A stretch of 64,000 nucleotides of DNA from Cannabis sativa. Taxonomy: Eukaryota; Streptophyta; Magnoliopsida; Rosales; Cannabaceae. A program made the position numbers and the translations under genes. Positions 35,041 to 64,000 of the stretch are shown here, piece by piece. Position 1 is the stretch's first letter. The number at the start of each line of letters is the position of its first letter. The notes under the pieces are model-generated. The model was not told the origin of the DNA. It made no database searches and was given only the letters and a program-made list of their open reading frames with translations. The stretch spans positions 35,291,280 to 35,355,279 of the forward strand of contig NC_083605.1 in NCBI RefSeq assembly GCF_029168945.1, read 5' to 3'.

Positions 35041-35058
35041 TGGCGCCGTTGCCGGGGA
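35041..35058 (+). other. Primer-binding site of element X
   Basis: TGGCGCCGTTGCCGGGGA lies 6 nt after the LTR end. This is the tRNA-Asp-type PBS known from Athila/Tat-group elements and is identical to that of Z. Confidence 0.9.
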
Positions 35059-37550: not shown

Positions 37551-38809
37551 AGGGGCTCAGGTAAGTTTCTCCCACCCTGGTTTATTTTCACACATTGGGG
37601 ACAATGTGCATTTTTAGTTTGGGGGGGGGGGGAACTTAAATTTTTTTCGCGCGTTTATTTGTTTTAGTTTAGTTTGTTTTAGTTTTTAGTCTTGTGTGAT
37701 AGCTAAATTGAAAGATTGATTGAATTGTTGTTATTCACTTGTGCAATGGATTAAAACATAACTGTGTGCTTGACTTGCAACTGTTTGAATTAAGATGGAT
37801 GTGTGCTAGGAAGTGATTCATGTAGATTTAAAACATTTGCTATTCTCACATATCACCTCTGTTCTATTTGGTTTGTGGAATGATTGATTGTACATGGAAT
37901 AGAATTTGTATGACATACTCTCTTGAAGCGAAATCCTTGATATTTATTTTGTTTGGAAAGTGATTTAGGCAAGTTTTCTTTGGAACGATTGAGCCTTTCA
38001 AGCCTACCTAGAAATATTTACCATAGTATACCCAAAGTTGAGCCTTAGCCTGTTTTAAAAAATTTTCACCACTTAACTGAGCTGAATTTGTATCTTAAAC
38101 TCTTTTCACCCTGAACATACCTTATTATGCCATGAGCCTTGAAGCAAGTTTGGGGGGATAAGTGCTGTAAGTGGAAAAATAAAGTGTAGGAATGAGAGAT
38201 TGAAAAAAAGAATAATATTGTGTGTTGTGCCTATGAAAAAGAAGAAAGAAAGAAAAAAAGAAAAATGTCTTCTTGAAGAAAAAAAGTTAAGAAAATTATG
38301 AGGTACACACATAAGAAAAATTGCAATCTCTTATTTCTGTTTTTGGGATATATGGAAAGAAAGCAAAATAAATGTCTAAGCTTGTTTGGTTAATAGTGCT
38401 TATGGTATAGTATAGCCTAAATGACTTCTCACCTACCCATGTACCTAAGCCATGCGATGTTAACCGAAAAAGACCTATTGATTCCAAATAGAAATTTGTC
38501 AACATTAGTGGAGAGAGGTATGTCGTTCAAAATTATTGATCATGTGTTAGTGGGATGTTGGAAAGTTTAGAACAGTTGTGATATTGATGGCAATTGCGAT
38601 GTTTTATGTTTGTATGAATTACTTACTTGTAAATTGCACATTCAACTTAGTTCTTAGAGTTGGCAAGTTGAAATTCTGGTTATTGATGGATTGAAGTTGT
38701 GCAGGTGGTGGTAACAATTAAATTGTTGGAAAGTTTAGCTATCATTGTCAGTTTGTTTAGTTTAGTCCTAGTTTACTCGGGGACGAGTAAAGAGTCAGTT
38801 TGGGGGAGT
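37551..38809 (+). other. Element X 3' non-coding region and PPT
   Basis: Directly after the stop, CTCAGGTAAGTTT (37556-37568) is a consensus plant 5' splice site. The hairpin CACATTG-GGGA-CAATGTG (37591-37608) and a G-run at 37621-37632 follow. The rest is non-coding, where RT, RNase H and integrase would normally lie. TTTGGGGGAG (38799-38808) next to the 3' LTR is the polypurine tract. Confidence 0.8.
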
Positions 38810-51852: not shown

Positions 51853-53076
51853 AAAGGGGAAATTTTTAATTAGTATTATACTACCAAACGATAATAAAAA
51901 AGAAAATCACTTAAACAATTAAATAAGAAGATTGGACTTAAATATTATGAACTATCACCTAATGGAAGATAATTTGTTGACGCAAAGTTCAATAATGGTC
52001 TTGCCTAGTGTTTAACGCCCAAATGTGACTTCCACTAGCGGTGGTTGTAGTATAGATCGGGCGGTCGATTCCACAAGGAGGTGATTATAGACAAAAGCGT
52101 TAGTAGAAAAATAAACACAAAAGGTTAATAAAAAGTAACAAATAAGTAACCAAAAGAGTTTGAGGATTTTTCTTTTGGTAATAAATATTAAAGAAAAGCA
52201 AATAAGGGTGTAACCAATAATAAAAGAGAGAAAGGCTTCAAGAATCATCCATATGCTTGTTTAGCTATTTTGTACCTTTGATTCACTAAGTTGACACAAA
52301 TTATGTAACATTAAAGTTCATTATATTTTGAGTATACAAGTTCTTAAAAATAAAAGAAATAATTTAATCTTATGTAGAACCTAGAAATGACATTATACAT
52401 CAGGCAATAATGCAATAAAAGATTAAATATAAAACTAAACATCAATATATATTATGACTAAATAGTAACACATAGAAAGAGCATGACTAATCCTATATAT
52501 TTTTAGTAAAAATAATGACAAAGAGATAGAGATGGAGATGGAGGTGATAGTGAAGGAAATGAACATTAATATTACTTTTATTAATTTTTAGACATATAGG
52601 AAGAGCATGACTAAACCTATATATCATTTAACAAAAAGTAAGTAAAAATGAACATAAAAGACAGAAATGAGCAATACTACCATTACTATAATCACTAAAT
52701 AAAAATATATAGAAAGAGCATGACTAAGTCTATATATATATTTTTATCTCAAAAAAAAATCTATATATATATTTGGTATATAATAGCATAAATAGTATAG
52801 ATGGAAGAAGAACATAAAAATAAAAGTGGAGTATTAACTTGCATTACTCAAATAAATATTACAACAAAAAGTGAATCAAAGATACAAAATAACCTCACTT
52901 TGCATATGGAATCATCCCTAACCTTCCAAGGAAGTTAGGCCATATGCTAATCATTCTCATAAAATTTCTAAAGAGGAAAGATGAGAAGAAAAGTTGAGAG
53001 AATTTTGCTATAGTTTTTCTACACTAAAAATTACACACCAAAAATTACTAAAATGAGCTCCTATTTATAAAGCCAT

Positions 53077-54472
53077 TGATTAAGGCTCAAATTTATATAT
53101 TTAAAGGTTTAATAGCGTTCATAAAATTAATTTAATTAATTATTTTCATGGTTTTAATTGTAAAATTATGATAGTTGGAAATATTTAATTTATTTTAATT
53201 TTGTGTTATTTTCAGGGTTGAGTTAGTGAAACAGTGGCATGTTTGGAGCTGTTAAACCCAACTCAATAGTTGGTATTGTTGTAAACATGAAACAATGGCC
53301 CGAGCCCAATTTATTTAGTCCATAATGTCATTATTCACCATCAATTATTATAGTTCCAAGTCTTGAAGCTAACATGCAAAGCCAACATATTCAAAGAAAA
53401 TGGGCCAAGTCAATAACAAGCCAGCCATTTCTCCATGCATTCTCTCTCCAATCAAAGAATGAATAATTCTTTATAATAAGTCCAACGTTCAAGAAAGAAG
53501 GCCCAATTTTAGTCTATTTAGTTTGGTCAACAAATTTATTTATTCAACATGTGCGGACAAGACTTTTTCTCTTGCATGATGCTACATCGCAAGTCCCATT
53601 CACTCCCACTCATCAGCACACTTCTCGCAGTGCGACAAGTGTCCCACTTTGCCCAGAATTTTGAGCCACTTCTCCAATATCTCACACTACAAAAAATATC
53701 AGTTATGAGTATTATTTTGGTTCTATAAATAGTACCGATTAGAAGAGCAAAACATCAGATTTTAGAGAGAGTAGAAAATTATTTTGTCATTATATTTTTC
53801 TCTCTTATTACTATTTTATCTATACTTATTTTAGTGACAAAAATGAGCGTATTAAAATAGTAATATTGGTTAGATTAGAGTGTAGCTTTTGTACTTCTTA
53901 TTTTAATTATTGATATTGATTCTTTTGTGCTTCATCTCCATATCTTATTTCTTAAATTGTTCTTCATCTTCTAATTTTTCTTCCAAATTTAATAGTATCT
54001 TTTATATAAGTTCAGTCATGCTTTTCTTATGTAAGTTAGGCTATTAATATTTTGGTATATTTATTATATTTTATGTCGTTTACTGCATTCTGCCAATAGT
54101 GGTATTTTGTCGATTTATGATATATAATATGATATGCTATTAAGTTAGAGGTGAGATTCAATTTATTCAAGATTATTTAATTTGTGCTCATAACATATAT
54201 ATCTTCCGGTTGTTATTAATGGTGTAGAATTGCAACTGTGTTCTGAATTAATATCGGTATTAGAATAGGATTTGCATAACTACATCTCTACCTTACTAAA
54301 CTCTTTATCTGATCATCCCCTTTCACTCACCATTTTATTATTTTTAATTCATTCACATTTCTATCATTTTATATTTACTAAACTAATCTTTAGTGGTAAT
54401 TTACCTCCCTGTGGATACGACATATAACCCGTTTACTACCGCGACCGCAGTGTAACTAATTGGGCGACATCA
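53077..54472 (+). repeat. 5' LTR of element Z
   Basis: TGATTAAGG...GACATCA. TATA box TATAAATAG at 53724-53732. Hairpin ATATAAG...CTTATGT with an AGTCATGCT loop at 54004-54032. U5 phrase CCCTGTGGATACGAC near 54408. Confidence 0.95.
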
Positions 54473-54477
54473 ATTTT

Positions 54478-54495
54478 TGGCGCCGTTGCCGGGGA
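54478..54495 (+). other. Primer-binding site of element Z
   Basis: TGGCGCCGTTGCCGGGGA, tRNA-Asp type, identical to element X and one base different from W. Confidence 0.9.
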
Positions 54496-54980
54496 GGTTT
54501 CTGCGCTACAAAAGGTTAGTATAGTAATTTTTTTTTTTTAGTATCTATTTATTTTTTTTTTTGTTTTTGTCTCTCTTTATTTATTTATTTTTTATTGATT
54601 TGTTTCTTTATTTATTTAATTATTAAAAAAAAATGCCAATTTTTTTTTTCTGTTAGTAGTTTATCTTTTTTTATTTTCGTTTAGAATATATAGTGTGTTT
54701 CTTTTTTTCCTTTGTTTCTTTACTAAAAAAAACTGAAGTAATTTTTTTTTTTGTCTTTTTCTTAATGTATATATATATTTAGTAATTATAAATATATAAG
54801 ATAGATTTTTTTTAAAGAAAAAAAAAACTGATTAAAAAAAAGTAATACACTTTATTTATTTTTATATATATTTTCTTCTTTTTTTTTTTTTAGATTAATT
54901 TTATTCCTTTAACTTAACAAAAAAAAAATTAGTGTTGAGAAAAATTGTGTAATAGTAAAAGTGGTAAAATTGAGAATATT

Positions 54981-55110
54981 CTGTCTAAGAAAGATTGGCT
55001 TTAAAGGTTTGTGGTAGAGTACCCTCTACACTTTCTAGCAACCCCGGGGAGTTCTAGTAAAGTGTGGGACGAAGCGGTACCTTGGCAACCTTCCCAATCG
55101 GCCTGGGAAT
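54981..55110 (+). promoter_or_regulatory. Structured 5' leader module of Z
   Basis: Nested helices. P1 is GATTGG/CCAATC (54993-54998 with 55094-55099). P2 is AAGGTT/AACCTT (55004-55009 with 55087-55092). P3 is CTACACTTT/AAAGTGTGG (55026-55034 with 55059-55067), extended by CTAG/CTAG and AAC/GTT. The apical loop holds the palindrome CCCCGGGG (55042-55049). Two related copies occur in the W leader with compensatory changes. The function is unknown; packaging or dimerisation is the obvious hypothesis. Confidence 0.75.
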
Positions 55111-55159
55111 ATCTCATGTATATACCCTTAAATTATTACATAGTTGAACTTTATACTAA

Positions 55160-56239
55160 TTAAAAAAATATATATATGAAAAAGATCATCGTCGATTTGA
55201 ATATTTGTATCCAATATATCTTTCTTCATTAAACAATGCAAATTCTAGTGCTACTGAAGGTACTAGTAATTTTATCGAACCAGAATTTAGTGATGGGGAG
55301 GAAGCTTTCCAATACTATTCTTTTTACAAGAGTGAGAGTTCCAAAAAGTGGAAGGCTTGGTACGAGTCTCATCGACCACGTCCTTATGAACATACACCAT
55401 CTGGTGCACATCCCTATGACGAAGAGGAAGAACAGTCCTACAACTCTTACTATCAGAATGGTCCTGATGATTATAGTTGGAAGCCTGAGTACGACTATAA
55501 TCCATTATATGAGTGGAATTGGGAAGAGAAAGATCCATGGTATAATCACAACAGCTCTGATGATCATAGTTGGAAGCCTGAGTACAACTATAATCCATTA
55601 TATGAGTGGAGTTGTGAAGAGGAAGATGCTTGGTTTTCTCATAACTCTCAACATCTATACAATCGCTCCCTAAATGACACTATTGTTGAGTTACAAGCAT
55701 CTATGGTGATAAATTGCGAGATGATGAAAGACTTACTTGCTGAGCTGAAAGAAATTAAGCAAGAATTGAGCAAGTTATCTGGTCACCTGGTAAGTTCGCA
55801 TGCTAACGATTTTCCTCTACAACAGGTGAATGAAGCACTAATCTCCAATACTACCTTTCACAATTTTGATGAGGTAAGTGTCACCTCTACCTATAGTGGT
55901 GAAAATTTTAAAGAATCCACTCTACCGAGTACATGTGATGGTTATCATACTGATGTGGTACCCACATTATTCATAGAGAAGGATGATACCACCACTATTC
56001 AGAATGAAACTCTTTCTCATTCTATCATTCTTCCCCTAATTCTGGATGAAAAGAAATGCTATCATACTGATGTGATAGACAAAGCCGTTGAGGAAATTAG
56101 AAAATTATTTTCACTTAGTCATTTACCATATTTCCTCTACGACTTAGACAAAGATCATTTTCTTTTTCCTGAAAATGTAACTAATGCTTCTATTTTTGAG
56201 ACACAGGATAAAAGAAAATTTATTTTTGATACTGGATAG
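55160..56239 (+). CDS. Element Z novel ORF, possibly derived from gag tail
   Basis: Open from a TAA at 55157 to the stop at 56237, about 359 codons, but with no in-frame ATG until residue 167 counted from 55205. Translation of the main part therefore needs splicing, a non-AUG start or an upstream ATG (55176) in another frame. Aromatic- and acid-rich N-terminal half (YYSFYKSESSKKWKAWYESH) with a 31-residue tandem duplication (two units of DD-SWKPEY-YNPLYEW type; DNA 55466-55558 and 55559-55651). Then a coiled coil ending EIKQELSKLSGH (about residues 155-195) and a C-terminal part repeating YHTDV twice. The segment RSLNDTI...EIKQELSKL parallels NSLENTI...EIKSQFSKL at the end of W gag, so it may descend from a gag C-terminus that lost capsid and zinc knuckle. 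No known enzyme motif was recognised. Confidence 0.65.
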   Translation, partial: LKKYIYEKDHRRFEYLYPIYLSSLNNANSSATEGTSNFIEPEFSDGEEAFQYYSFYKSESSKKWKAWYESHRPRPYEHTPSGAHPYDEEEEQSYNSYYQNGPDDYSWKPEYDYNPLYEWNWEEKDPWYNHNSSDDHSWKPEYNYNPLYEWSCEEEDAWFSHNSQHLYNRSLNDTIVELQASMVINCEMMKDLLAELKEIKQELSKLSGHLVSSHANDFPLQQVNEALISNTTFHNFDEVSVTSTYSGENFKESTLPSTCDGYHTDVVPTLFIEKDDTTTIQNETLSHSIILPLILDEKKCYHTDVIDKAVEEIRKLFSLSHLPYFLYDLDKDHFLFPENVTNASIFETQDKRKFIFDTG

Positions 56240-56255
56240 TCAAGAATATTGAGTT

Positions 56256-56292
56256 GGTAAGCCTACCTGAGGAGACTTGTCTCCGGCTTGCC
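56256..56292 (+). promoter_or_regulatory. Stem-loop after the Z ORF
   Basis: GGTAAGCC pairs with GGCTTGCC (one T-G pair), enclosing GGAGA-CTTG-TCTCC. It lies 17 nt after the stop codon. The 5' edge TTGGTAAGC also resembles a splice donor. Confidence 0.55.
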
Positions 56293-56470
56293 AAGACTAA
56301 TCAGGTTCTATCTTTCCTTGCTTTCTTTTATTTTCGGTATGTTTTACCTTTAGTTTTGTTTGTTTATTCTTCCTTTAGTTTTATTTTTCTAAGAATCAAT
56401 ATCATGTCATTTTGCATTGGCTCACTCTCTAAGTGTTCTCATTTCATGCATTTCATGTATATATTTTTAA

Positions 56471-56486
56471 ACAATGAGGACATTGT
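56471..56486 (+). promoter_or_regulatory. ACAATG-AGGA-CATTGT hairpin of Z
   Basis: Perfect 6-bp stem followed by TTTTAGTTGGGGG. Element X has the equivalent CACATTG-GGGA-CAATGTG hairpin followed by a T-rich stretch and G-run at the same relative place. Its role may be in 3' processing or as an accessory plus-strand primer region. Confidence 0.6.
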
Positions 56487-57500
56487 CTAATTTTAGTTGG
56501 GGGTGGTGAGCATATTCAAGCGTTTTTCTTAATTTTTGTCATATTAATATTTTCATGGTCAAATTTTTCAAAAATTACTCATTTACTCTTGTAAAATATT
56601 ATTTTCAAGCCAATTTTTGCTATCTTTATTACTTAGAATTTTTCTAGAGTTACAAAATGCACATGCCAAACTTTGTGGTAAGATGGTTGTTAGCACATAT
56701 TTGCTTATAAAATTTGCCAAGTTTAAGTGTTCATGTTCTTTTATGAGTGGCGAGATTTGAGAAAATAATTTTTGAATTTTTATTGATTCTTAGAAATGGT
56801 TATAATTATTTTGGACATGGTACTAGGGTTTGATTGGATGTTGCTTTAAGGGATAATATTTTTATAGACAAATCTTATTAAGGAGCCTTTGTGTAATTAT
56901 TTTCTTTAAGTGCAAAAAAAAAAAAAAAAAAAAAAATAGAAAAAAAATATAGAAAAGAAAAGAAAAAAAAATTGTACTATTTCATTTTTTTTATTTTGGC
57001 TCCTAGAAAAACAAATGTAAAAGATTGTCTATTTTCGTTCAAAAATCCCGAAAAGCTGGTTTGTGGTACTCTTACGGTGGTTTGTCCAAATAATTCATAA
57101 CCTATCTTTGTTTCAATGTTTATTCAAATGTTTGTCCTAAATTGATCTATCCATTTCGAGTGCTCACTTTTCAATTTCCAACTCCATGAGTGAATACCTT
57201 AGCCATATATAAATGTTTTCAATGACCTGTGAGGCTAATGGAGTTGAGACTTCCACTTGGTACATTTTTCGAAAGCTCTTATGTGCTATGGTTTGTGGTA
57301 AGAAGGTTCAAGTTTGGTGCACACACTCACAACTCTAGATTTATTCAAGGTAATTTTGTATAGTTCTTATTTGCTTGTTACTAATATTTTGCTTGAATAT
57401 TTGTGCCATTTTTTTTAATTTTTGACTTAAAAATATCATGTTGACATTATTTTTGTTTGCTTGAATTGCTAGAGACTAGCAATAAGCTAGTTGGGGGTTG

Positions 57501-58896
57501 TGATTAAGGCTCAAATTTATATATTTAAAGGTTTAATAGCGTTCATAAAATAAATTTAATTAATTATTTTCATGGTTTTAATTGTAAAATTATGATAGTT
57601 GGAAATATTTAATTTATTTTAATTTTGTGTTATTTTCAGGGTTGAGTTAGTGAAACAGTGGCATGTTTGGAGCTGTTAAACCCAACTCAATAGTTGGTAT
57701 TGTTGTAAACATGAAACAATGGCCCGAGCCCAATTTATTTAGTCCATAATGTCATTGTTCACCATCAATTATTATAGTTCCAAGTCTTGAAGCTAACATG
57801 CAAAGCCAACATATTCAAAGAAAATGGGCCAAGTCAATAACAAGCCAGCCATTTCTCCATGCATTCTCTCTCCAATCAAAGAATGAATAATTCTTTATAA
57901 TAAGTCCAACGTTCAAGAAAGAAGGCCCAATTTTAGTCTATTTAGTTTGGTCAACAAATTTATTTATTCAACATGTGCGGACAAGACTTTTTCTCTTGCA
58001 TGATGCTACATCGCAAGTCCCATTCACTCCCACTCATCAGCACACTTCTCGCAGTGCGACAAGTGTCCCACTTTGCCCAGAATTTTGAGCCACTTCTCCA
58101 ATATCTCACACTACAAAAAATATCAGTTATGAGTATTATTTTGGTTCTATAAATAGTACCGATTAGAAGAGCAAAACATCAGATTTTAGAGAGAGTAGAA
58201 AATTATTTTGTCATTATATTTTTCTCTCTTATTACTATTTTATCTATACTTATTTTAGTGACAAAAATGAGCGTATTAAAATAGTAATATTGGTGAGATT
58301 AGAGTGTAGCTTTTGTACTTCTTATTTTAATTATTGATATTGATTCTTTTGTGCTTCATCTCCATATCTTATTTCTTAAATTGTTCTTCATCTTCTAATT
58401 TTTCTTCCAAATTTAATAGTATCTTTTATATAAGTTCAGTCATGCTTTTCTTATGTAAGTTAGGCTATTAATATTTTGGTATATTTATTATATTTTATGT
58501 CGTTTACTGCATTCTGCCAATAGTGGTATTTTGTCGATTTATGATATATAATATGATATGCTATTAAGTTAGAGGTGAGATTCAATTTATTCAAGATTAT
58601 TTAATTTGTGCTCATAACATATATATCTTCCGGTTGTTATTAATGGTGTAGAATTGCAACTGTGTTCTGAATTAATATCGGTATTAGAATAGGATTTGCA
58701 TAACTACATCTCTACCTTACTAAACTCTTTATCTGATCATCCCCTTTCACTCACCATTTTATTATTTTTAATTCATTCACATTTCTATCATTTTATATTT
58801 ACTAAACTAATCTTTAGTGGTAATTTACCTCCCTGTGGATACGACATATAACCCGTTTACTACCGCGACCGCAGTGTAACTAATTGGGCGACATCA
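57501..58896 (+). repeat. 3' LTR of element Z
   Basis: 1396 bp. Differences from the 5' LTR seen by eye: AAATAAATTT for AAATTAATTT, GTCATTGTTC for GTCATTATTC, GGTGAGATT for GGTTAGATT. Confidence 0.95.
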
Positions 58897-59400
58897 GCCA
58901 TAAAAGGACTAAAAATAAATAAATAAAAATTTGGGATTATAAAATAAATATTAAGATTAAATTTGACATTTCAAATCAAAAATAAAATTAATATTATTTT
59001 TGTTATCATTTTGATTTTGTCTTCTACTCTTTGGATGAAGGTTGAGTGTGGAAGAGGAAAATAGGGTTGATGATGACCTAGACTTATCATCATTGCATCA
59101 CATGCTTTGGAAGAGACAAAATTGATGATGAGCTTCATGGGCTAGGCTTGACCTTTTTGGGTTGGGTTGCTTTGGACTTCAACAAAAATGTCATTTTTTC
59201 TTCATTTCTTTTCAACTTTGCTCCTTCCTCTTTCTTTCAACAAAAATACACTTTAATTCCTACAAGAAAGACATAAATTGAATCAAAATCAAATATTTTC
59301 ATTTATAAAATATATTACAATAATTTCATGAAATATCAATTAAAACTCAATTTATTTTATCATTTAAAATAAATAAAAGTGTATTTTTAACCACTAATCA

Positions 59401-60688
59401 CAACCCCCAACTAGCTTATTGCTAGTCCCTAGCAATTCAAGCGGAGAAAAAGAATAATCGAGCTGAATAAACAAGTCAAACCACGCAAAATATCCAAGCA
59501 TTTTCAAAATATTAGTAGAGAGTTAAAGATTGCTATCAATGTTATTTCAGTTGTAACAATAAAGTTGTGTGTGTGCACCAAACTGTATTTATTTTATTTC
59601 AAGTCTTAACACAAATAGTATCGAAAAATCTCAAAAGTGTAAAATTCTCAATTCCAATTTTTTTTCACGAGTATTGAAAGCATTTATATTGGAACGGTGA
59701 CACTCTTTGGAATTGGAAATGTAACAATTAACGCACAAATGAGAGAGGATAAACTTTTTAGGACAAGAAATTTGAACAAATATTGATCACAAGATAGACA
59801 TATCAAACTAATAGAATTCAAATGACAAACAACCTTTGGGATTTACATGAAAAACTCAGATAATAAAGAGCCAACTAACTAACTAATAAATAAAGAAATA
59901 TAATAACAAATTTTATATTTTTTAGAGAGACATGTGATGCTTCTCTTTTTCTTTTCTTTTTAATTAAAATAAACTAACATGATTATTTTTTTTTTTTGAT
60001 ATGAAAAGAATGGAGGAAATAGAAATAAAATGATATTACTTTTGCTATTTTTATTTTTTTATTTTATTTTTTTTTTCTCAAAAAAAAAAAGATGGAGACT
60101 ACATATAAAATGATGTTGCTCTTGTTCTTTTTTTTTTTTATTATATATTTTTTTGATGATTTTTTTTTCTTTTATTTTTGTTTTGATGATATATTTTTTT
60201 TTTACTTTTTTTTTCCTTTTTTTTTCTTCTTTTTTTTTTTTTTTACAAGAGACAACATATAAAAATAAAGACATAAAGAAATACAATAAAGTTACAAAGA
60301 AATAAACACAAAGGCTCTTTTGACATAAAATTAATCTTTCTAGTAAATGTCATGTTTGAAATTTCAAAAGTTTGACTTTACCAACTCAAATGATCAATAA
60401 AAGTTCAAAAAGTTGTTTTCTCAACTCTCACAACTCACCAAAAATGAAAAACTTTACACTCAAAATTTTTCTTAACTATATGTGTTTACAACTATTTTAC
60501 CACATGTTTGGAAAGTGCACAAAAGAACTCTGAAAATCATAACTTGGTAACAAAATATAGTAAATATTGACTCAAACTGTAATTTTACAATCATGCTTGG
60601 ATAATTTTGAAAAAAATTTGACTTAAAAATTCAACAAGACAATTATATTTTCCAAATGAACGCTCACTAGAGCTCACCACCCCCAATT
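59401..60688 (-). mobile_element. Element V 3' non-coding internal remnant
   Basis: On the minus strand it runs from GGGGGTGGTGAGC (about 60670) to the PPT AGTTGGGGGTTG at 59401-59412. It parallels the Z 3' region, for example the phrases GGTGCACACAC and CTAGCAATAAGCTAG. No coding sequence is left. It includes a 180-bp polypyrimidine stretch (about 60050-60245). At about 60688 it is joined to the inverted, truncated LTR of W. Confidence 0.7.
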
Positions 60689-61732
60689 ATGGCTCTATAA
60701 ATAGGAGCTCATTTTAGTAATTTTTGGTGTGTAATTTTTAGTGTAGAAAAACTATAGCAAAATTCTCTCAACTTTTCTTCTCATCTTTTCTCTTTAGAAA
60801 TTTTATGAGAATGATTAGCATAATGACCTAATCTTTCTAGGAAGGTTAGGGATGATTCCATATGCAAAGTGAGGTTATTTTGTATCTTTGATTCACTTTT
60901 TGTTGTAATATTTATTTGAATAATGTAAGTTCATATTCCACTTTTATTTTTATATTCTTCTTCCATCTATACTATCTATGCTATTATATCCCAAATATAT
61001 ATATATAGACTTAGTCAAGCTCTTTTTATATATTTTCATTTTGTGATTATACTAATGGTAGTATTGCTCATTTCTATCTTTTATGTTCATTTTTATTTAC
61101 TTTTTGTTAAATGATATATAGGTTTAGTCATGCTCTCCCTATATGTCTAAAAATTAATAAAAGTAATATTAATGTTCATTTTCTTTACTATCACCTCCAT
61201 CTCCATCTCTATTTCTTTGTCATTATTTTTACTAAAGATATATAGGATTAGTCATGCTCTTTCTATGTGTTACTATTAAGTAAAAATAATATTGATGTTC
61301 AGTTTTATATTTAATCTTTTATTGCATTATTGCTTGATGTATAATGTCATTTCTAGGTTCTACATAAGATTAAATTATTTCTTTTATTTTTAAGAACTTG
61401 TATACTCAAAAATATAATGAACTTTAATGTTACATTATTTGTGTCAACTTAGTGAATCAAAGATACAAAATAGCTAAACAAGCATATGGATGATTCTTGA
61501 AGCCTTTCTCTCTTTGACTATTGATTACACTTTTATTTGCTTTCTTTTAATATTTATTACCAAAACAAAAATCTATTCAAACTCTTTTGGTTACTTATTT
61601 GTTACTTTTTATTAACCTTTTGTGTTGATTTTTCTACTAACGCTTCTGTCCATAATCACCTCTCTGTGGAATCGACTGCCCGATCTATACTACAACCACC
61701 GCTAGTGGAAGTCACATTTTGGGCGTTAAACA
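60689..61732 (+). repeat. Truncated 5' LTR of element W
   Basis: Starts abruptly at ATGGCTCTATAAATAGG, about 500 bp inside the LTR by comparison with V, and ends GGCGTTAAACA. TATA box at 60696-60703. Three hairpins with TTAGTCATGCT-type loops at 61001-61033, 61116-61144 and 61240-61268. U5 phrase CTCTGTGGAATCGAC near 61662. The intervening repeats have a period of about 120 bp. Confidence 0.85.
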
Positions 61733-61737
61733 AATTT

Positions 61738-61755
61738 TGGCACCGTTGCCGGGGA
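61738..61755 (+). other. Primer-binding site of element W
   Basis: TGGCACCGTTGCCGGGGA, one base different from the tRNA-Asp-type PBS of X and Z. Confidence 0.88.
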
Positions 61756-62283
61756 GGTAATTTTTCGAAAGCTAGTGAAATCTACAATCAAGAGGTTAGT
61801 AACTTTTTTTTTGTTACATTTTATTTTCTTGTGAATATTGTCTTATGTTGTGTAAATATTTGTAAAAAAAAAATTACCAAGAATTCAAAGTATGCTCTAA
61901 GGTTCCGGTTTTATCCGATCAACCTTATCATAAATGATTTCTTGAAAAATAAAAAAATAGTTAACATCTTCTTGTATTTAGTTTTACAAGTATAATTTTA
62001 TTTTTCTTGACAAAAAAAATGGTCTATTCCCTTTATTTTTATTTTTTTTACTTTAATTTTTGTTTAGCATGATTGTCTATATTATCTTTTAGTTATTGTT
62101 TTCTTTCTTCATTATTGTTTTATTTGTCTTTTTCTTAGTACTCTTAGCATTTAAGCTCTCTAAAAAAAAATCATAAAATACAAAAAAAAAAAAAATAATA
62201 AATAAGTTGTAAAAATTCTTTCACAAAACACTTAGTATTTGGTACAACGGTGTAAAATTGTATATGACACAAACCAAGATTGT

Positions 62284-62415
62284 TCTGTCTAGAAAGATTG
62301 GTTTTTAAATAAGGTTTGTGTTAGTGTACCCTCCACCTTACCTGGGAACCTCGGTTCTGTCTAGGCAAGGTTGGGACGAAGCGCTACCTTGGCAATCTTT
62401 CCAATCGGCCTGAGA
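62284..62415 (+). promoter_or_regulatory. Structured leader module W1
   Basis: P1 GATTGG/CCAATC (62296-62301 with 62401-62406). P2 AAGGTT/AATCTT with a G-U pair (62311-62316 with 62394-62399). P3 CCTT/AAGG (62336-62339 with 62367-62370) leads to a GAAC-CUCG-GUUC apical hairpin (62346-62357). It aligns with Z along its length, including GGGACGAAGCG and CCTTGGCAA. Confidence 0.72.
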
Positions 62416-62510
62416 ACATTTTTGTGTTAATCATTGTAATATTGCATTTTTGTGCTATTGACTATAACAAAAACAACCTTGTTCAATCAAAAATAGGCAA
62501 TTCATTTTTG

Positions 62511-62629
62511 CTTAGAAAGGTCTTTGGTCGAAAAGGTTAGTGAACCCTTCACACTTACCTGGTAACCCCGGGGAGTTCTAGTAAGTTGTGAAGGACCATT
62601 CTAAAAACCTCCAAAGTAACCTGGGAACA
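62511..62629 (+). promoter_or_regulatory. Structured leader module W2
   Basis: P1 is CTTTGG/CCAAAG (62522-62527 with 62611-62616), replacing GATTGG/CCAATC. P2 is AGGTT/AACCT (62534-62538 with 62606-62610). P3 is CCTTCACA/TGTGAAGG (62546-62553 with 62587-62594) continued by CTTA/TAAG, CTGG/CTAG and AAC/GTT. The apical loop includes CCCCGGGG (62566-62573), as in Z. Confidence 0.75.
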
Positions 62630-62688
62630 AACTGAACAAAAGAAAATTTTAAGAAAAATAAATTAAAAAAAAAAGCAAACTAGAGGGG

Positions 62689-64000
62689 ATGAGTAACTCT
62701 TCTTCTGACGAAACCACTTCTAGTGAAACTTTGTCCAATCCATCCACTACTCCTTCTCCCATTCACACGATAATCGATAATCCTTTCGCAATGAATAATA
62801 ATAATGAAATACAACAGAGAACACTTAATGATTACCTTCACTCCACCCAAACTTCCATACCATCATGTTTCATATTTCTACCTAATATGCCAAGTCTTGG
62901 TGTCAAACCTGACATTATTCAACTTTTGCCAACTTTTCATGGAATAGAAAATGAAAATCCATACGTGCATATTAGGGAGTTTGAGGAAGTTGTTGACACT
63001 TTTTATGACCGAGCAACCATCAATGATGTTGCACGCTTAAAGTTTTTCCCCTTCTCCTTGAAGGATAAAGCTAAAAGTTGGTTGTATTCTTTGAGATCTA
63101 GGCCTATTGGAACATGGGAAGAAATGACCAAAATATTTTTTGTTAAATATTTTCCTGTCCATAAGACCAACAGTTTGAAAAGACAAATCTCAACATTTTC
63201 CCAAAAAGACAATGAAACGTTCTATCAAGTCTGGGAGAGATTTAAAGATCTCTTAAGTCAGTGTCCACACCACGGGTACGAGAGTTGGCGCATCGTCAGC
63301 TACTTCTATGAAGGCCTCACAAGTCGTGAGCACCAGTTCGTAGAAATGATGTGCAACGGTGAGTTCCTTCAAAAAGAACCCGAAGAAGCTCTTGAGTTTT
63401 TCATTGAGCTTGCTGAAAAATCTCACACATGGACTGGTCCAAGTGCTGCTGAAAGCACCAACAGAAATTGACCATCTGGGATTTACCAACTTTGGGAAGA
63501 GGATAGCTTAAAGGCCCAAGTCGAAGCTTTAAAAAAGCAAATTGAAATCCTTACGACTAAAGATGGCCAAAAAGGGCGCATGGTTGCCCAAGCACAAACC
63601 AGACCACTCGAACCTTGTTTTGTTTGTGGAGAAAATGAGCATTTAGCTAAGGACTGCTTAGTGTACAAAGAAATGAAGGGGGTTCATGAGGAGCAATGCA
63701 ATGCCTTAGGGCAATATAACAAGCCATTCTCCCATGGGTACAACCCTGGTTGGAGAAACCACCCGAATTTCAGTTGGAGAGATAATTCCAATCAAGCTCA
63801 AACGTCTGGAGGACAATGGAGAAATGAGAATCAAGCTCAACCTCCAAAGGCATATCATGCACCTCAATACCATGCTCAACAACAAGGAAACTCCCTTGAA
63901 AATACCATTCATGCATTCATTGAGGAACAAACCAAAATCAATCGCCAATTAAAGGAAGATGTCCAAGAAATAAAAAGTCAATTTTCAAAATTGAACACAT
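62689..64000 (+). pseudogene. Element W gag (one in-frame stop, 3' end outside window)
   Basis: ATG 62689 gives MSNSSSDETTSSE. Athila/Tat-type capsid: LKFFPFSLKDKAKSWLYSLR, YFPVHKTNSLKRQI, WERFKDLLSQCPHHGYESW, closely parallel to X gag. A TGA at 63469-63471 interrupts the frame, which continues without shift into a coiled-coil segment (LKAQVEALKKQIEIL), the CCHC knuckle CFVCGENEHLAKDC (about 63616-63660) and a Trp/Asn/Gln-rich tail (WRNHPNFSWRDNSNQ). It ends at the window edge in a coiled coil (IKSQFSKLNT) resembling part of the Z ORF. One point mutation could explain the stop. Confidence 0.9.

Follow-up and report, generated by a model that had tools for sequence, protein, structure and literature searches.

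A conserved leader RNA module in Athila-like LTR elements of Cannabis sativa and its possible role in packaging and dimerisation

A leader module in three element families

The stretch of Cannabis sativa DNA analyzed here (contig NC_083605.1, positions 35,291,280 to 35,355,279; 64,000 nucleotides, referred to as the window) harbors the long terminal repeat (LTR) elements Z and W, the leaders of which contain an RNA module of about 120 nt, in one copy in Z and in two copies in W (W1 and W2; Table 1). The module also occurs in a third, gag-coding family, X, from which that of Z hardly differs, and the fold of the Z copy is retained in W2. These LTR elements are taken here to belong to the Athila clade. 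The module may be a cis-acting packaging and dimerisation element of their leaders, a reading for which confidence and doubt are evenly balanced.

The earlier note, which was made from the letters of the window, described three helices (P1 to P3) in all three copies, and string location and alignment placed the module and the quoted helix strings where that note had them. For P3 this holds in part, as the strings are in place and the register in W1 is off by one relative to Z. Z aligned with W1 at 77% over 144 nt (E 1e-25) and with W2 at 81% over 53 nt (E 9e-8), whereas the rest of the Z-W comparison was chiefly composed of A/T-rich runs and the flank of the LTR end and primer-binding site (PBS). 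A covariance model built from Z and W1 only (R1) recovered the held-out W2 with 37.2 bits (E 1.3e-6 in 64 kb). A sequence-only model likewise recovered W2, with 29.2 bits and a lower E-value (4.2e-8) than the structured model, and the structured model scored 13.1 bits on the opposite strand. A search of positions 52000-64000 with the Rfam 15 covariance models (E up to 1) gave two matches, none within the module. Pattern scans of viral, bacterial and archaeal contigs for the module strings gave 0 matches, and gag scans of viral, bacterial and archaeal contigs found no relative.

The 21-nt apical string of the module, with up to two mismatches, was found at 147 sites in the 770-Mb genome, and its reversed control at 0. 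The listing comprised 100 of the 147 sites, two of them in the window; of the 98 elsewhere, 88 were retrieved, and the 10 listed sites outside this sample are all located on C10. Classified by their bodies, the fetched loci comprised 52 X (gag-coding, one module), 23 W (two modules), 11 Z, and 2 unclassed, and the families covered are X/Z and W; the Z count includes L025 on 72 nt only, and a rule of at least 100 nt yields 10 Z and 3 unclassed. Model R1 identified a Z- or W1-type module in 88/88 loci. W1 was present in 23/23 W loci, and W2 was found in 22 of these and in the window, the exception being an old copy (L046) in which W2 is recognizable by eye. The exact PBS core CCGTTGCCGGGG occurred in 67/88 loci. 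Ty3-type domain order (protease, reverse transcriptase, RNase H, and integrase) was observed in X and W, in one locus each. X locus L089 contained protease, reverse transcriptase, RNase H, and the integrase core, with the integrase zinc-binding part under the cut-off, and W locus L090 contained protease, reverse transcriptase, and RNase H, with only the zinc-binding part of integrase found. The gag DNA of X and W is about 70% alike.

Conservation of the module between Z and X

The predicted open reading frame (ORF) of Z contained no protease, reverse transcriptase, RNase H, integrase, or gag domain in Pfam, and its nine homologues found are all named Cannabis sativa. In 40-nt bins (Z 53919-55379 against X locus L019), Z and X resembled each other in islands. 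The module (54957-55114) showed identities of 0.90-1.00, the LTR end with the PBS (54405-54524) 0.97-1.00, and LTR bin 53999 1.00, compared with 0.33-0.68 in the leader between PBS and module and 0.28-0.90 in the remaining LTR bins from 53959 on. In blastn comparisons, the modules of the 52 X loci matched that of Z at 95.7-99.1%, and the X LTRs matched the Z LTR at 69-75%, except for one 77-nt L051 match (94.8%). The module is thus nearly unchanged relative to the gag-pol family X, while the LTRs and the other parts of the leader have diverged, and the proposal of the earlier note that the non-autonomous Z retains a cis-acting RNA element is well supported by these comparisons. Judged from LTRs and modules, the nearer relative of Z is X and not W. 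W was therefore rejected as the nearest helper of Z, and its more distant relationship to Z makes it an unlikely helper.

Two loci, L003 and L025, lacked an ORF of >150 aa in about 3 kb and retained the module. L003 has a Z-type LTR. L025 combines an LTR of X type (0.86-1.00 against L022, compared in 50-nt bins) with a leader stretch nearest to that of L003 (0.72-1.00), the two loci sharing a third kind of leader; past the module, L025 tracks the Z of the window for ~150 nt (0.85-1.00), which L003 does not. By their sequence, both are mosaics for LTR type, and such loci would be expected if RNAs of these families were co-packed and copied with template switches. The same mosaics also feed a different explanation, namely, that the module has no RNA function and that islands were exchanged between families by recombination during reverse transcription, so that a recently swapped module seems conserved. 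In L003 and L025, the resemblance indeed shifts near the module and at the LTR-end/PBS island. However, an exchange of ~150 nt would need two nearby switches each time, and swapping leaves unexplained why the more distant W2 refolds into the same shape; this is considered the least probable of the readings weighed here.

Conservation of the fold

Fold retention was measured by averaging the pairing probability over the Z pairs, allowing a slip of one, and was compared in structure-blind alignments with two nulls (1000 permutations each) in which substitutions were redistributed among columns. W2, with 34 substitutions, showed a retention of 0.933 against null means of 0.10-0.11, which 0/1000 permutations reached in both nulls. 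Retention in W1 was weak (0.601; equaled or exceeded by 18 and 28 of 1000 permutations). A fold that is conserved across the module copies is likely. Within families, pairing was kept in 98.8% of 1848 cells in Z/X (66 rows), 97.8% of 599 in W1 (24 rows), and 99.1% of 690 in W2 (23 rows), with one double-changed cell that is still paired in Z/X and one in W1. Paired sites of Z/X changed less than the other sites (37/3696 vs. 80/3960 cells, p 2.6e-4; p 0.026 with 40 distinct rows), these and the further paired-site p-values given below being generous because the rows are related. In alignment A6 (113 rows, 59 distinct), which was fitted with the model and is biased towards structure, 93.6% of cells paired, the corresponding figures being 89.6% for shuffles and 29.5-53.3% for slid versions, and eight pairs were changed on both sides vs. 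4.9 in shuffles (9 of 500 reached 8). Many rows contained G-U pairs on the sense strand (74, 49, and 20 cells), which favors pairing of the sense-strand RNA because the antisense equivalents would be A-C mismatches. Single-sequence folding energy was unremarkable (z -1.3 to -1.8) and was rejected as an argument.

The apical palindrome and the proposed function

The apex of Z, X, and W2 contains a CCCGGG palindrome; this six-base GC palindrome is part of CCCGGGGA, around which the stem terminates in AAC/GTT. In the 64 kb, CCCCGGGG was found only at the apices of Z and W2. CCCGGG was present at the apex in 85/88 loci, all of which had been selected through that loop, and the frequency of apex loss is therefore not inferable from them. 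For the apical hairpin, the energy calculated for a homodimer (-28.9 vs. twice -7.1 kcal/mol) was not used, as duplexes of this kind are available to every hairpin.

The position of the module, its palindromic apex, and the mosaic loci are compatible with the packaging and dimerisation reading. What we infer comprises dimerisation, Gag binding, a helper relation between X and Z, and a division of roles in W. The genomic RNA would fold as a rod with P1 and P2 at its base, a long P3 stem, and the GC palindrome at the tip; two such RNAs would come into contact loop to loop, and Gag would recognize the dimer or the base, upon which the pair would be packed and reverse transcribed. Z, the ORF of which has no gag or pol domain, would retain the module and be packed by the Gag of the related X. 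The doubled module of W would have diverged, W1 retaining the base sequence and W2 the palindromic apex. A more specific form of this proposal, in which the module is an interchangeable kissing-loop packaging part of plant Ty3-type elements that the helper X uses, that the parasite Z has retained, and that W has in duplicate, split into a Gag-recognition base (first copy) and a dimerisation apex (second copy), is tentative and appears unlikely to hold as a whole.

In the Z and W of the window, the module is located between the PBS and the first ORF, as the earlier note had it. A module just upstream of the first ORF could instead control translation by steering ribosomes (shunt, internal entry, or start choice), and the distance from the module end to the gag ATG is about 60 nt in W and about 80 nt in X locus L019. 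On the other hand, L003 and L025 retain the module without an ORF of >150 aa, Z and X have unrelated first ORFs, and translation control does not require a palindromic apex; this explanation is considered unlikely. Control of nuclear export or splicing, in which the A/U-rich leader before the module may be intronic and unspliced RNA would be marked or retained by the module, is more doubtful than translation control and less so than swapping. In X and W, the PBS is followed by a donor-like AGAGGTTAGT (W 61791-61800), and in the Z of the window by AAAGGTTAGT (54511-54520), the leader between donor-like site and module has 17-23% G+C in three loci, and structured export elements in mouse LTR elements are reported in a 2025 review (PMC12786077); however, the acceptor was guessed by eye.

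Several observations weigh against packaging and dimerisation as the function of the module. The apical hairpin predicted by RNAfold forms two C-G pairs within the palindrome and leaves three bases free, so that a kissing loop would need these pairs to open. The loop of W1 differs and is without a palindrome. In two commoner W1 copies that were tried (L006 and L012), P1 hardly forms (0.08) and P2 forms (0.82), and in the ensemble of the window's W1 the probability of P2 is 0.0. The module is not universal, since an element of the window with the same PBS, at 35042, and a short leader has no module by eye or by R1. Covariation, which the earlier note had put forward, was not borne out, as neither canonical pairs nor double changes were clearly above the permutation null. 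In W2, 22/28 Z pairs are canonical (matched by 46-71 of 1000 permutations) with two double changes (410-414 of 1000), and in W1, 23/28 are canonical (92-129 of 1000) with one double change (249-461 of 1000). The G-U pair in P2 of W1 (AATCTT) was rejected as evidence of covariation because it is private to the copy in the window, with G-C in 21/22 W1 rows; the G-C closing P1 of W1 is also private to this copy, 20/22 rows having G-U there (both counts omit two further W1 rows). The lower rate of change at paired sites of Z/X weakens (p 0.097) once the rows are reduced to the 40 distinct ones and the search pattern is excluded, and no difference was observed in W1 (p 0.196) or W2 (p 0.269). Strict covariation is not proven in a sample that amounts to three independent sequences, and the fold retention of W2 takes the place of this weak argument.

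Comparison with known systems

Among published systems, the closest counterpart of an element that lacks Gag and retains packaging signals is BARE2 of barley, a plant LTR element that is said to keep conserved dimerisation and packaging signals and to be packed in particles (PMC3735527). The BARE1/BARE2 pair resembles the case of Z in that an element without Gag is said to retain packaging signals, although BARE is Copia whereas the Cannabis elements have Ty3-type domain order, and the two are likened by description and not by sequence. In the leader of Ty1, loop-loop contacts are proposed to start dimerisation, and mini-Ty1 is mobilized by a helper (PMC5454406). Both are leader RNAs of LTR elements with proposed kissing loops, but Ty1 has a pseudoknot and two distinct complementary loops, whereas the Cannabis module has one self-complementary loop. 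Lentiviral dimerisation is said to begin at GC-rich palindromic loops (PMC4588261). The module is similar to the retroviral dimerisation initiation site and packaging signal (psi) in being a hairpin that lies between PBS and gag and has a GC-rich palindromic apex, a likeness drawn without sequence comparison; it differs in its partly closed predicted apex, the lack of a palindrome in W1, and the duplication in W.

Within the literature listings and passages covered, BARE is the sole plant LTR element said to have dimerisation and packaging signals. Titles and the beginnings of abstracts, a set with subscription papers mostly outside it, mentioned no leader signal in Athila-type elements, and the main text of a 2025 review on plant LTR elements contained no word beginning with "dimeri". 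A compact module that is common to a gag-pol family and its likely parasite is a concrete target for two open questions, namely, how plant Gag selects the RNA to be packed and by what means elements that lack those genes continue to jump.

Elements Z and W and other features of the window

Table 1. Positions of the module copies, their helices, and features of elements Z and W in the window.
Feature	Position	Strand	Remarks
Z module, P1 to P1'	54993..55099	+	helix strings located; flank 54957-55114 conserved
Z P1	54993-54998/55094-55099	+	GATTGG/CCAATC
Z P2	55004-55009/55087-55092	+	AAGGTT/AACCTT
Z P3	55026-55034/55059-55067	+	
Z apical palindrome	55042..55049	+	CCCCGGGG, one of two window occurrences
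W module 1 (W1)	62296..62406	+	model R1, 139.2 bits; W1 is a training sequence
W1 P1	62296-62301/62401-62406	+	GATTGG/CCAATC
W1 P2	62311-62316/62394-62399	+	AAGGTT/AATCTT (G-U)
W module 2 (W2)	62522..62616	+	held-out match, 37.2 bits
W2 P1	62522-62527/62611-62616	+	CTTTGG/CCAAAG
W2 P2	62534-62538/62606-62610	+	AGGTT/AACCT
W2 P3	62546-62553/62587-62594	+	
W2 apical palindrome	62566..62573	+	CCCCGGGG, the other of two window occurrences
Part of element	53077..54472	+	1396 bp, 99.8% identical, 3 mismatches
Z PBS core	54479..54494	+	exact GGCGCCGTTGCCGGGG, chance expectation 0
Z ORF	55205..56239	+	344 aa, no Pfam domain
W PBS core	61739..61754	+	one mismatch
W gag ORF	62689..63471	+	closed by in-frame stop; zinc-knuckle ORF next at 63580

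The PBS core of Z is presumably of the tRNA-Asp type. L014 and L015 have open ORFs comparable in length to that of Z (345 and 353 aa, respectively). Domain matches for the gag region of W were Retrotrans_gag (4.5e-20) and zf-CCHC (1.5e-4), and a match to Rfam snoR71 lies inside the W gag (63172-63278, minus strand; 42.8 bits, gathering 40), which is probably due to a retrotransposon piece inside that Rfam family. In four scan windows, the stretch 61818-62025 of the W leader had a much stronger predicted fold than shuffled sequences (z -2.7 to -5.0). Between Z and W, a piece on the minus strand (58897-60700) resembles a Z-like 3' end, as judged by eye.

LTR hairpins with a common loop around AGTCATGCT were observed once in Z (54001-54035), once in X, and three times in the W LTR (61003-61035, 61115-61150, and 61238-61275; -4.6, -12.2, and -11.2 kcal/mol, respectively). 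Their stems vary yet pair, the Z stem being judged by eye, and the Z-X bin is 100% identical. Small hairpins at 37585-37635 (element at 33.8-40.1 kb) and 56464-56514 (Z), the stems of which differ but pair, precede a G-rich, second polypurine-like tract. Elsewhere in the genome, X elements L028, L041, and L042 (G000:C2:85829622, 85838350, and 85847104) lie on one strand at spacings of 8728 and 8754 bases and look as if they form a tandem with shared LTRs, and L017 and L044 are similarly spaced (8733).
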